A stretch of 39,633 nucleotides of DNA, taken from IMG/VR virus record IMGVR_UViG_3300010389_000042, positions 1-39,633 of that record; one strand, written 5' to 3'. This document shows positions 90 to 8,433 of the stretch, piece by piece. The notes below the pieces were generated by a model. It was not told the DNA's origin, ran no database searches, and was given only the letters and a program-made list of their open reading frames with translations. Position 1 is the stretch's first letter. Each line of letters begins with the position of its first letter. The position numbers were made by a program, and so were the translations under genes. Origin of the DNA: a virus.

Positions 90-809
90 TTAGCTGCCTA
101 TAGCCCGTCGCAAAGATTCTTTTAAAAGACCAGGCAAGACCTCGGTCCCATAATCCACAGCGAAACGACGGAGGTCAAAGATCGTCGGAACGGTTGGCTG
201 AGTTCTGGCGTAGGTAAAGAGCATCTGGACGTCGTTGCGTCCTTTGATCCGATAGATGCCGGGTTTGAGGTTGGCGGTCTGACGAGTCTTGCGCTGGTCG
301 GGCACAGAGATGTACCGATACCCGCCACTGCCCGTGCCAGTCTTCAGGCCCTGCACAACCTGCTGGTACTGGCCAGGGCTCATGCGGCCGTAGGCATTAG
401 CCCTGACACCACGACCAGCAAGGAATGGGACGGGCCAATAGTTACCGCTAACAATCCCTGCCTTCCTGAGGTAATTAGTGAATCGAGTTTCGTAAATCGG
501 TTTCTGTCCTGCACCATCTTCAGCAGAAACGGGATAGAGGTACTTACCAGGCGCGTTACCTTTGTCGACTCGATCCTTGACTCGAATTGTCAGCTCGAAG
601 CCATTTGCTTCAGAGACGACAGAGTTAAGAGTTAATGGAACAGGATTGCGGAAGACATCTTGCATGTCTTGCCGGACCTGCTGCTTGGCGAAGAGGTAGC
701 CGTAGCGCTTGAGCGCTTGTTGAGTCGCGTAAGGCAGTTGAACTTTTTCTACGACGTTGATCTTTCCAACTAAATCATTTACATCCCACTCAATGTTCTT
801 GTACGCCAT
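90..809 (-). CDS. Probable phage structural (minor tail/neck, gpZ-like) protein
   Basis: 239 aa, ATG start with an AGGT ribosome-binding site five bases upstream. I do not recognise it with certainty. The layout (helical N-terminus, then an RNPVPLTLNSV segment near residue 55, a YLYPV segment, a NAYGRMSPGQ segment near residue 140, and a LKPGIYR segment near residue 180) resembles a family of phage proteins usually found among head-tail joining genes and sometimes labelled minor tail protein Z. No signal peptide, membrane segment or catalytic motif is evident. It sits alone between the candidate replication origin and a terminator, at the end of the replication operon, while the other head-tail genes lie at the far right of the window. 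That displacement is odd. It could instead be an unrelated early gene. The function is inferred from remembered family resemblance only. Confidence 0.6.
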   Translation of the reverse strand: MAYKNIEWDVNDLVGKINVVEKVQLPYATQQALKRYGYLFAKQQVRQDMQDVFRNPVPLTLNSVVSEANGFELTIRVKDRVDKGNAPGKYLYPVSAEDGAGQKPIYETRFTNYLRKAGIVSGNYWPVPFLAGRGVRANAYGRMSPGQYQQVVQGLKTGTGSGGYRYISVPDQRKTRQTANLKPGIYRIKGRNDVQMLFTYARTQPTVPTIFDLRRFAVDYGTEVLPGLLKESLRRAIGS

Positions 810-908
810 ATCGACCTAAACCGGGTGTCTGCGAGTCCAGGCTAGGCAGGGAAGGGGGAGGAGCTCTCGGGGCAGTTGGCGTGACCAGGGAACTCCACGG
901 CGCAGAAC

Positions 909-1242
909 GTAACCGGGTTCCGTCCAGGTGTCAAGCATTCGGGTCCGAAGGGGGTGTAACGCTTGTAACGGTGCGTAACGGTGGGCGTAACGCCGAGATC
1001 CCTTGCGGCGACTGCGTTGTAACGGTGTAACACTAAATCTCTACTTTTATAGATATAGATAGATAGAGGGGTGTCTGGGTGTGTGTACGTGTGTATGTAT
1101 AAGGGTGTGTTCTCTCGGAAGCGTTACACCCCGAAAAAACGTTACAACCCTTGCGCTGGAAGGGATCTCAGCGTTACACCGACCGTTACACCGAGGCGAA
1201 AAACGTTACAACTCAGTCACAGCAAGGGTTTTGGACCGTTAC
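909..1242. repeat. Inverted array of 13 GTAAC pentamers (iteron-like)
   Basis: GTAAC on the plus strand begins at 909, 956, 965, 975, 987, 1019 and 1027. The reverse complement GTTAC begins at 1123, 1141, 1173, 1185, 1205 and 1238. Eleven of the 13 extend to GTAACG, and most are preceded by GGT, GT or TT, giving a consensus near GGYGTAACG. The spacing of 956-987 is 9, 10 and 12 bp, roughly one helical turn, as expected for cooperative protein binding. Confidence 0.85.
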
Positions 1243-1290
1243 GCCTTGAGGGAAAAATCCAAGATCCCTTGCTATCACTGGGTTCCAACC
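991..1290. repeat. Three copies of a ~34-bp element (two inverted, one direct, degenerate)
   Basis: Copy A (plus, 991-1024) and copy B (minus, 1140-1173) share GAGATCCCTT at the left and TTGTAACG at the right, and form a long imperfect inverted repeat around the central AT-rich segment. Copy C (plus, 1259-1290) keeps AAGATCCCTTGC and a CACTGGGTTCCAAC end but has lost the GTAAC pentamer. The repeats are visible by direct alignment. Confidence 0.75.
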
Positions 1291-1307
1291 TTGAGACCAG
1301 CCAGAGA

Positions 1308-3806
1308 CTAAAGATCCAGCACGCTCATCGGTATCACCAAGCAACGCATTGGACCCATAGCTGGAAACCTGATGGCGGTCTTCGGGGTCGTCACACCATT
1401 GATGCGTTTCAGGGACTGTTTGTAGGCATTTCCGCTCCATGGGGTGTCCCGGACGATGGCCTGGAGGTTGCTGTTGCCGTTCGCGATGGCCAAGGAATCG
1501 CCCTGGATTTTGAGCCCATAGCGGGCGATCACAAGCGACGGATCCTCGGAGTCCTCGCGGTGTGCGGTGACCTTGAAGCAACCCCGCTGAGCCATGCCAA
1601 CCAGCTCCCTGAGGGTCATTCTTTTGCCATCTACTTGAATCATGTGGTTGAGAATGAAGTTCAAACACTTCATCTCATCAGCCTCACTTGGGTCGGTCTG
1701 ATGACTCTCCCAGTCCATACTTTGAATCCATTTCTGTGCTTGATCGAGGCTGATCAGTTCACCACCGGCAGGAGAAAGTGACCAGGCACCTGCGAGAAGT
1801 GTGCCGTGCTGATCGCCATAACGCTGGCCAAACTCTTTAGCGAGTGCCGCTGCAAATGTGCGTGCGTTAGATCGAATAAATGGGATGTTGTCGACGGTTC
1901 GAGCAATCAGCTTGCGGCCATTTTCCTCGGTGGCGAAGTCATAGATCCGCTGCTCAAAGTCCCGCCAGTCGTCTTTTGAGATGGGATCACGGCGCAGGCC
2001 AAGGACGCAGAAGCGGTCGACGTCGGCTTTCTGGATCAGGTTGACGTTGATGGATGAGACGCAGAACATGCTGCGGATCTCGAAGGAGTTGGAACCACCC
2101 GACGAGGTGCCCTTGTAGATCTTTCCGCCTTCAGAGGAGGCAATGCGAGCGAGGGCGAGGATGTTCTGAACGATCTGCTTGTCGCGTTGTTCGTTCTGCT
2201 CAAACTCGTCGAAGACAACGGGGATGGCGTCGGACTTCAGGGTGCCGCGAAGGCCGGCTTCAGTGGTGCCGCCGGTTGCTGCTTGGTAGATGCCGCCGAG
2301 GAGCGGGCGCATGAAGTGTTTGAGGATGGTGGTCTTGCCAGTGCCGGCTCCACCAGTGATCCAAATGTGAGGTCTCCAGTCGAGAGCACCGCAGACGGGA
2401 GCAAGAACAATCCAGCCGACTAGGAAGTAGGCGGAAGCTGGGACCTCCCACTTGAACTGGCGGGCGAGCTTGAACAGTTCAATGGTGATTTCATCAGTGA
2501 GAGGCTCGCTTGCGGGGCCAATCAGTGACTTGGCGTTTTCGTAGAAGTAGTACGAATTAGGCGGATTCTGAATGTGATGCTCAGTAGGCGGGCCTTGATC
2601 GGGGATGACTGAGAGCCTGTTGCCGAGATGAAGGATGACGCGACCTGCGTCGTACCAGGCGCCGCGGCCACGGATGCGACTTGGATCAAAGACGCCTTGC
2701 TGAGTGCAGACCCGCATGAGGGTGTCTGCTGCGCGATCAGTGTCGAATGAGGTTTTAGTGGGAAACATGGCGCACCACCAATCGAGGCTTGCCAGGTTCA
2801 TGAGGTTGAGCTTGGTGTGGCCAGAGGCCGGGAGCTCGATGACCTGTGAGGCCTCGTTGGGGAGGTAGTAGTAGTAGCCGCGATCGAAGCCAAGGCATCG
2901 GAAGGGCCACTCGGCGGGGAGTTCAGGATCGGCGTCAGGGGGAGCAGGGTCGTCAGGTTCGTCTTCGATGGCCTCTTCGATGTCGATGACCAGGGGAGTG
3001 GAGACGTTGTTTTTGGCGTAGTCGGCTGCTTCTTGAGGTGACCAGGATGCGTCGGCGAGATCCCAGCCCTCTGCCATTTCCTGAGGAGGGGCGATGATCT
3101 GGATGCGCTCGACGCCGATGCTCATCAGCTTGCGAGCGAGGCGGTCCATGGCATCGCGGCCGACTTGATCGTTGTCAGGCCAGAGCAGGACCTTGCGATC
3201 AGCGAGTGGAGTCCAGTCGGTCTTGTTGATCGCTTTGCAGCCTGAGGCCCAGGTTGTGCAAACGGCCTGGGGGAAGAGTGAGCAGGCAGCGGTCCAGGCC
3301 TTTTCGCCTTCGACTACAAGGATGGTTTTATCCGAGGACTTGATTGCATCGAGGTTTAGGAGTGGACGCGGGGCTGGTGGTGCTTTCCACTGCCAGCGGT
3401 CACCGTCGAACCAGAGAGGGCGGATTTTCTTGCCAGGAAAGCGAGCGACGATGAAGTTGTCGCTGTAGCGCCAGGTTAATTCAGCACCTTGGGTTGGGGG
3501 TTCAGGGCGCTGCTTGACGATGCCGAGGTAGGACTCAATACGTTTAGCGGCTTCTTTGAAGTCCCAGTTATTGCGGCGCATGAGGAGGTCCATGCCGGTG
3601 CCACCACCACCGCGTTGATCACGGCCACCGCACTGATTGCAGTACCAGGAGCCAGTACCGTCCTTATCGTCATAGCGATAGCGATCTTCGCCGCCGCAGA
3701 GTGGGCAAGGTTGGTGTTTATCGGTGAGCTGCTCAGGGGAGAGCCCTGCCAGGTCGGCAAGGATTGATGACCAGCGATTGAGCGCAAGGTCGGTGACTTT
3801 GTTCAT
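1308..3806 (-). CDS. Primase-helicase (zinc ribbon, Toprim, P-loop ATPase)
   Basis: 832 aa. It is expected to lay down RNA primers and unwind DNA at the fork. An N-terminal primase zinc ribbon uses C34, C37, C56 and C59. A Toprim domain follows with VEGEK at 165-169 and the metal-binding WPDND at 209-213. The C-terminal half is a P-loop ATPase with GGAGTGKT at 485-492 and a Walker B segment VVFDEFE at 530-536, like the helicase half of phage and plasmid primase-helicases. An acidic, proline-rich linker (about 279-298) separates the halves. It overlaps the upstream 69-aa gene by 4 bp, so the two are translationally coupled. It ends directly at the candidate origin. No DNA polymerase is seen in the window, so a host or out-of-window polymerase must extend the primers. 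Confidence 0.93.
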   Translation of the reverse strand: MNKVTDLALNRWSSILADLAGLSPEQLTDKHQPCPLCGGEDRYRYDDKDGTGSWYCNQCGGRDQRGGGGTGMDLLMRRNNWDFKEAAKRIESYLGIVKQRPEPPTQGAELTWRYSDNFIVARFPGKKIRPLWFDGDRWQWKAPPAPRPLLNLDAIKSSDKTILVVEGEKAWTAACSLFPQAVCTTWASGCKAINKTDWTPLADRKVLLWPDNDQVGRDAMDRLARKLMSIGVERIQIIAPPQEMAEGWDLADASWSPQEAADYAKNNVSTPLVIDIEEAIEDEPDDPAPPDADPELPAEWPFRCLGFDRGYYYYLPNEASQVIELPASGHTKLNLMNLASLDWWCAMFPTKTSFDTDRAADTLMRVCTQQGVFDPSRIRGRGAWYDAGRVILHLGNRLSVIPDQGPPTEHHIQNPPNSYYFYENAKSLIGPASEPLTDEITIELFKLARQFKWEVPASAYFLVGWIVLAPVCGALDWRPHIWITGGAGTGKTTILKHFMRPLLGGIYQAATGGTTEAGLRGTLKSDAIPVVFDEFEQNEQRDKQIVQNILALARIASSEGGKIYKGTSSGGSNSFEIRSMFCVSSINVNLIQKADVDRFCVLGLRRDPISKDDWRDFEQRIYDFATEENGRKLIARTVDNIPFIRSNARTFAAALAKEFGQRYGDQHGTLLAGAWSLSPAGGELISLDQAQKWIQSMDWESHQTDPSEADEMKCLNFILNHMIQVDGKRMTLRELVGMAQRGCFKVTAHREDSEDPSLVIARYGLKIQGDSLAIANGNSNLQAIVRDTPWSGNAYKQSLKRINGVTTPKTAIRFPAMGPMRCLVIPMSVLDL

Positions 3807-7608: not shown

Positions 7609-8258
7609 CCGACCAAAACTCTGCACTAACAACCACGACACCTGGCGGGGTATTTGGAGGCATTCAAGCCTTTGAGGACGGCCAGCGTATTGCCAAGGCT
7701 CTTGCCAGCAGCAGCTTGGTGCCCAGTCAGTTCCAGGGTCAGCAAGGTCTTGCAAATTGCATCGTTGCCTTGGAGATTGCAAACCGCATGGGTCTGAGTC
7801 CTTTGCAGGTGATGCAGAACCTCAACATCATTCATGGCCGCCCTAGCTGGAGCAGCCAATTCATCATTGCGCTGATCAATGGTTGCGGCCGATTCGAGCC
7901 GTTGCGTTACGAGATCAGCGGCCAGGGTGAAAGCCTTGCTTGCTATGCGGTTGCCAAGGAGAAGGCGACTGGCAATGACCTGAAGGGTCCGACCGTGACG
8001 ATGGCGATGGCCAAAGCCGAGGGTTGGGCCACTAAGCAAGGAAGCAAGTGGCGCACGATGCCTGAGCTGATGATTCGTTATCGCTCTGCTGCGATGTGGG
8101 GCCGGCTTTTTGTGCCGGAGCTGCTTGTGGGCATTACTCAAACTCAAGAGGAGGTGATTGAGATTGAGGAAGTGAAGGTCAGCAGTCCTGCTGCGGACCT
8201 GAATGCAAAGATGGCAGCTCAGCCTGCTCAAAAGGTTGAAGAGGATGAACTCTTCTGA
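7605..8258 (+). CDS. RecT/Bet-like single-strand annealing protein
   Basis: 217 aa. Expected to coat ssDNA made by the exonuclease and anneal it to complementary strands. Family features: a helical N-terminal part with IANRMGLSPLQVMQN (about 61-75), a central beta region ending in a W-x-T-MPELMIRYRSA segment (about 146-160), and a following FVPELLVG-type segment, which matches the C-terminal signature of RecT-family recombinases. The C-terminus ends EEDELF, an acidic-hydrophobic tip like those of single-strand binding proteins. It is coupled to its neighbours by 4-bp and 14-bp overlaps. Assignment by motif reading only. Confidence 0.82.
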   Translation: MTDQNSALTTTTPGGVFGGIQAFEDGQRIAKALASSSLVPSQFQGQQGLANCIVALEIANRMGLSPLQVMQNLNIIHGRPSWSSQFIIALINGCGRFEPLRYEISGQGESLACYAVAKEKATGNDLKGPTVTMAMAKAEGWATKQGSKWRTMPELMIRYRSAAMWGRLFVPELLVGITQTQEEVIEIEEVKVSSPAADLNAKMAAQPAQKVEEDELF

Positions 8259-8433
8259 GTTTCTTACTACTAACCAGCTTGCGAAGCGTTGGGGCTTGCA
8301 CCCTGACACGTTGATGAGATGGCGCAAGGCGGATAAGGGTCCCCCTTATTTCGTCACACCCAGCTCAGTGCTCTACCCAACGGCCGAGGTAGAGCAATAC
8401 GAAAAGGCCAACACCCATTTCCCTGAGGACTGA
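8245..8433 (+). CDS. Helix-turn-helix DNA-binding protein (excisionase/MerR-like)
   Basis: 62 aa from the ATG at 8245, preceded by AAGG at a workable distance; a longer frame from 8203 lies inside the annealing gene and is unlikely. The first half (LTTNQLAKRWGLHPDTLMRWRKADKG, given here in part) is a textbook winged-HTH helix pair of the excisionase/AlpA type, followed by a strand and a short C-terminal helix (AEVEQYEK). It may regulate the operon or act as a directionality factor. No integrase is seen, so a transcriptional role is more likely. Confidence 0.85.
   Translation: MNSSEFLTTNQLAKRWGLHPDTLMRWRKADKGPPYFVTPSSVLYPTAEVEQYEKANTHFPED

Follow-up and report, generated by a model that had tools for sequence, protein, structure and literature searches.

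The 498-bp gap at positions 810–1307 of the window, a virus record of 39,633 bp that was analysed as a whole, is very probably the replication origin of a tailed phage. Its iterons would be bound by the C-terminal domain of the neighboring primase-helicase, with opposed loading, melting of an AT-rich segment, outward unwinding and priming. The original prediction, an iteron array at a candidate origin, was supported by the density of the repeats and by the conserved place and plan of the array. The support for this candidate origin extended further to the fold of the adjacent protein, a natural experiment on reader and target, and a control in which the primase gene is absent.

The GTAAC array and its centre

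The gap is flanked by the primase-helicase gene (1308–3806, minus strand) and by a minor-tail-like gene (ORF 90–809, minus strand). The ORFs of the window include lambda-like tail genes, RecT, a DUF3799 exonuclease and nucleotide-metabolism genes, and the tail, tape-measure and tail-fibre genes are encoded by the window itself. No exact terminal repeat was found in the window, which may be an incomplete genome. The hosts of this phage are probably picocyanobacteria, since among its cultured relatives Synechococcus phage S-H1 is the closest (42% identity). Rfam gave no matches within 700–1450, and scans of 700–1400 for promoters and terminators found none.

Thirteen GTAAC sites span 909–1242 (334 bp), 65 bp past the primase-helicase gene. 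The left arm (909–1031, plus strand) contains seven iterons of the form (T/C)GTAAC(G), in which GTAAC starts at 909, 956, 965, 975, 987, 1019 and 1027. The right arm (1123–1242, minus strand) contains six in the opposite orientation, at 1123, 1141, 1173, 1185, 1205 and 1238. An exact recount agreed with the predicted seven plus-strand sites on the left and six minus-strand sites on the right, and the predicted position right after the primase-helicase gene was also borne out.

The window contained 74 GTAAC in total, versus 41 ± 6 expected from dinucleotide shuffles. At the density outside the array (1.55/kb), the Poisson probability of 13 sites in 334 bp was 2e-14. An equal density elsewhere in the window was not seen, the richest other 350-bp stretch holding 3 sites. 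The commonest 6-mer downstream of the gene was present in 11 copies, compared with 5 in the best of 200 shuffles and 6 in the best of 179 other 430-bp stretches of the window. The claim of a count far above chance was upheld by these comparisons.

When the sites were read side by side, GTAAC was followed by G in 11 of 13 and preceded by T or C in nearly all. This suggested that the repeat unit is nearer to the heptamer (T/C)GTAACG. The predicted pentamer stood as a count, and gave way to the heptamer as the working unit. Comparison of the window with a 95%-identical relative (L010) for changes in the iterons gave 0/65 versus 11/387 changes, which was not significant. A scan of the collection for triples of GTAACG returned at least 119 stretches; 1 of the 80 loci listed carried this primase-helicase, which by a rough estimate is about chance level.

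The arms flank the 40-bp segment with the highest AT content in the whole window (1026–1065; 22.5% GC, in the bottom 0.01% of its 40-mers), a candidate DNA-unwinding element. The tract that follows between the arms (1066–1110) is, on direct reading, GT-rich. The predicted AT-rich centre was therefore correct for its left half and not for 1066–1110. Two 50-bp stretches, at 975–1024 (plus strand) and 1140–1189 (minus strand), form an imperfect inverted repeat with 82% complementarity.

A second origin motif, with the consensus CAAGGGATCTCGGC, was present as an exact copy at 992–1005 (minus strand), and with two mismatches each at 1159–1172 (plus strand) and 1258–1271 (minus strand). In the family, it occurred at 2.98/kb in the origins versus 0.10/kb elsewhere, a 30-fold enrichment. 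Unlike the drifting iterons, it is conserved across the origins of the cyanophage relatives. A GC-skew switch at the array was not borne out: the extremes of cumulative skew did not fall consistently there in the window or in the complete genomes of S-H1, Bdellovibrio phage phi1422 and Pararheinheimera phage KLER1-1.

The adjacent primase-helicase and its relatives

The primase-helicase (832 aa), the proposed initiator, consists of a zinc-ribbon primase N-terminus, an AAA+ helicase and a C-terminal winged-helix domain. The zinc-ribbon segment matched P4 alpha (54% over about 50 aa). Residues 437–832 were modeled with AlphaFold2 (mean pLDDT 79). In a Foldseek search of the PDB, the best matches to the predicted helicase were SCCmec Cch (5dgk; E 4e-8) and SaPI PriRep1 with dsDNA (7pds; E 5e-6), and in structural alignment the helicase part also matched MCM helicases (Z about 12).

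The C-terminal domain alone (pLDDT 90) had a winged-helix fold in the predicted model. In structural alignment, this domain scored best against the C-terminal portion of SaPIbov1 Rep (8tch), with a modest Z of 5.4 over 89 residues; Foldseek with this domain alone found nothing at E ≤ 0.001. A profile search of PDB sequences with the primase-helicase gave no true relative at E ≤ 1. The protein was not filed in the SaPI Rep/Cch family because no sequence homology to it was detectable.

Searches with the primase-helicase gave 35 viral loci at first and more later, among them contigs from Cyanobium genomes and from metagenome bins. A strongly over-represented 6-mer was present just past the gene in 48 of about 58 loci (p ≤ 0.01 versus 200 shuffles). 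The relatives with an array of the same plan include cyanophages, a Bdellovibrio phage and a Rheinheimera phage. Their iterons are spelled CGTTACA, CGTGACA, CGTAACA, CGTCACA, CGATACA and CGACCCA, and further CGTTAGA, CGTAAGA, CGTAATG, CGTATGA and CGTTGGA. Among the CGTNACA iterons, all four bases were found at the fourth letter across the relatives. Conservation in the relatives thus held for the place and plan of the array, while its letters drift.

Phage phi1422 (31% protein identity) has twelve GGTAAC sites in a mirror-symmetric arrangement with an AT-rich centre. These sites, past the primase gene (L222, 14007–14311), are in almost perfect mirror order and are unannotated in the record. 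KLER1-1 has CTTACA and GCTAA sites at the corresponding place. In the complete genomes of S-H1 and phi1422, the iteron cluster after the gene is the sole one. The arrays of five distant relatives (L019, L021, L029, L030 and L036) were weak, and none was detected in L094.

Other features of these loci were noted. In Cyanobium sp. Cruz-8D1, the replication gene is on three contigs (L044, L046 and L049), with similar CGTTAGA-type arrays. In the primase-helicase of L034 (4050–7643), the Walker A motif is interrupted by an insert, probably an intein, that gave weak LAGLIDADG/homing-endonuclease matches; L050 (2659–6429) gave a similar weak match. N-termini without the zinc ribbon were seen in L028, L034, L047, L078–L081 and L090–L092. 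The three N-termini scanned against Pfam (L027, L028 and L078) matched no family.

The part of the protein proposed to read the array

The tail gene provided a natural control. Where it lacked an upstream primase-helicase there was no array (L038, L041 and L042), and where the primase-helicase was present there was one (L039 and L040).

Exchanges of the N-terminus left the iterons in place. L027 lacks the zinc-ribbon/Toprim N-terminus of L020, a relative close to it in the helicase, and its CGTATG iterons are kept, nearly the same as those of L020. In L028, L034 and L047, the N-terminus is different and CGTTACA is kept.

A natural experiment was found in two groups of loci whose initiators are 97% identical. 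The repeats are CGATACA in L078, L080, L081 and L092, and CGACCCA at nearly every repeat in L090 and L091; seven aligned sites are switched inside conserved flanks. The initiators of the two groups have six fixed differences in 883 aa, five of which fall in a 17-residue stretch that immediately follows the recognition helix; in 200,000 random draws, this degree of clustering was never reached.

In the window, the counterpart of these 17 residues, as mapped by alignment, is a loop and wing segment (codons 803–819; 1350–1400, minus strand), and the predicted recognition helix is AYKQSLK, including Q797 (codons 794–800; 1407–1427, minus strand). Taken from the sequences, the tail-gene control, the N-terminal exchanges with the array kept, and the CGATACA/CGACCCA switch implicate the C-terminal portion of the primase-helicase as the reader of the array. 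The proposed iteron reader in the window is encoded by the codons of about residues 703–832 (1311–1700, minus strand).

The DNA identity between L080 and L090 was 82–99% along the gene, with 90–99% over most of its length, and 81% in its last 100 bp; it fell much further where the gap begins and recovered downstream. To judge from these alignments, the switch looks like the replacement of a cassette, made up of the last codons of the reader and the origin, probably by recombination. The CGACCCA form is represented by two contigs (L090 and L091) from one metagenome, other than that of the CGATACA group, and counts as one switch only.

An association of Q797 with iterons ending in NACA was striking by eye. 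It was not taken as independent evidence, because it involves only two to three changes on the helicase tree.

Known systems, alternative readings and significance

The original prediction knew of no named phage origin with this motif. As far as the layout goes this must be qualified, since the SaPI origins and P4 crr have it. The kind of system is known: a SaPI/P4-like initiator-iteron origin. The SaPI rep-ori (SaPIbov1 Rep, SaPI5 PriRep1) and SCCmec Cch/Cch2 use a self-loading AAA+ helicase. In SaPIs, the iterons follow directly on the rep gene and are recognized by the C-terminal domain of Rep (PMC7581432); they are arranged in opposed sets, on which two hexamers are proposed to be loaded head to head (PMC9894130).

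The candidate origin in the window is likewise directly downstream of the gene of an initiator-helicase, with short repeats in opposed sets and an AT-rich segment between them, and the predicted model of the initiator (mean pLDDT 79) has the Cch/SaPI Rep helicase fold. On the other hand, no homology of the initiator to SaPI Rep or Cch was detectable by sequence, and the system is on a tailed phage with its own tail genes, not on a satellite island or cassette. It also differs from SaPI and SCCmec in the zinc ribbon of the primase half, the second conserved motif CAAGGGATCTCGGC and the letters of the iterons.

A SaPI-like scheme is supported here because the anatomy is the same as that of SaPI Rep/ori. 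The winged-helix domain at the C-terminus of the primase-helicase would bind the heptamer iterons, and two helicase rings would be loaded in opposed orientation by the two oppositely directed arms. The AT-rich segment that the arms flank (1026–1065) may then melt, and the helicase would unwind outward, giving bidirectional replication. Synthesis would be started by the primase portion of the primase-helicase itself.

Iteron plasmids of the Rep/pi type have long direct repeats in one orientation, unlike the opposed heptamers of the window. Geminivirus Rep is a rolling-circle initiator of small ssDNA circles and is unrelated to the primase-helicase. A passage of PMC12548392 describes close relatives among the geminiviruses as often differing in their iterons, which are recognized sequence-specifically by the cognate Rep. 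The family of the window is similar in that close relatives have different iterons. In Vibrio PLE, the origin varies together with its reader, RepA, and the pair is exchanged as one module (PMC8263062). Unlike the window system, that of PLE has a RepA_N initiator without helicase or primase, and direct repeats of about 30 bp.

The main rival reading is suggested by P4, in which crr, with inverted 8-bp repeats, has the same position. According to the annotation, crr is just downstream of the primase-helicase gene alpha and has ten 8-bp type 1 repeats in both orientations, and a separate ori contains six more. The window is like P4 alpha/crr in the fusion of primase and helicase and in the short inverted repeats immediately past the 3' end of the gene, while the letters of the repeats differ. 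The array could accordingly be bound by the initiator as a cis-acting accessory or copy-control site, with synthesis starting elsewhere. We consider this improbable. A second iteron cluster, as at the separate ori of P4, was found neither in the window, which may be incomplete, nor in the complete genomes of S-H1 and phi1422, and the AT-rich segment is enclosed by the array itself.

Two other readings have far less in their favor. The array is upstream of ORF 90–809, repressors may have several sites, and an HTH_17 protein is encoded at 8203–8433. This would allow an operator array for a transcription factor that controls the primase-helicase or the tail gene. However, the array accompanies the primase-helicase and not the tail gene, it is 3' of the former, no sigma-70 promoter was matched in the gap, and the iterons switch spelling where the C-terminal domain of the helicase also differs. 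An operator is thus very unlikely. Still less likely is a site for packaging, partition or integration (pac/cos, centromere or attachment arms). Such sites also carry short repeats, and the gap borders structural genes; against this, the array is lost where the primase-helicase is absent, and no integrase or ParA/B was matched among the window ORFs covered by a non-exhaustive scan.

We therefore favor an origin read by the primase-helicase. The occurrence of such origins across a phage family, the drifting spelling of the iterons and the apparent linked cassette of reader and origin appear undescribed in the literature searched, which was not exhaustive; a search for cyanophages and iterons matched only an unrelated system.

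It is conceivable, although we hold it with somewhat less than even confidence, that in this family the final codons of the initiator's DNA-binding domain are linked with the neighboring origin in a specificity cassette and the two are swapped together, by which close relatives gain mutually incompatible origins. The pressure for such exchanges perhaps comes from satellites, nucleases or competing phages. If this is true, the natural series of iterons would let the recognition code of such initiators be read. The near-identical proteins with different repeats make the choice of base by residue directly testable, and also the cross-use of origins by related phages in one cell.

For most phages known only from sequence, the origin is undefined. 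For this family of cyanophages and Bdellovibrio and Rheinheimera phages, the array provides a rule for finding the origin: a mirrored repeat just past the primase-helicase gene, with variable letters. The SaPI-style scheme of initiation by an MCM-like helicase would thereby be carried into free-living phages.
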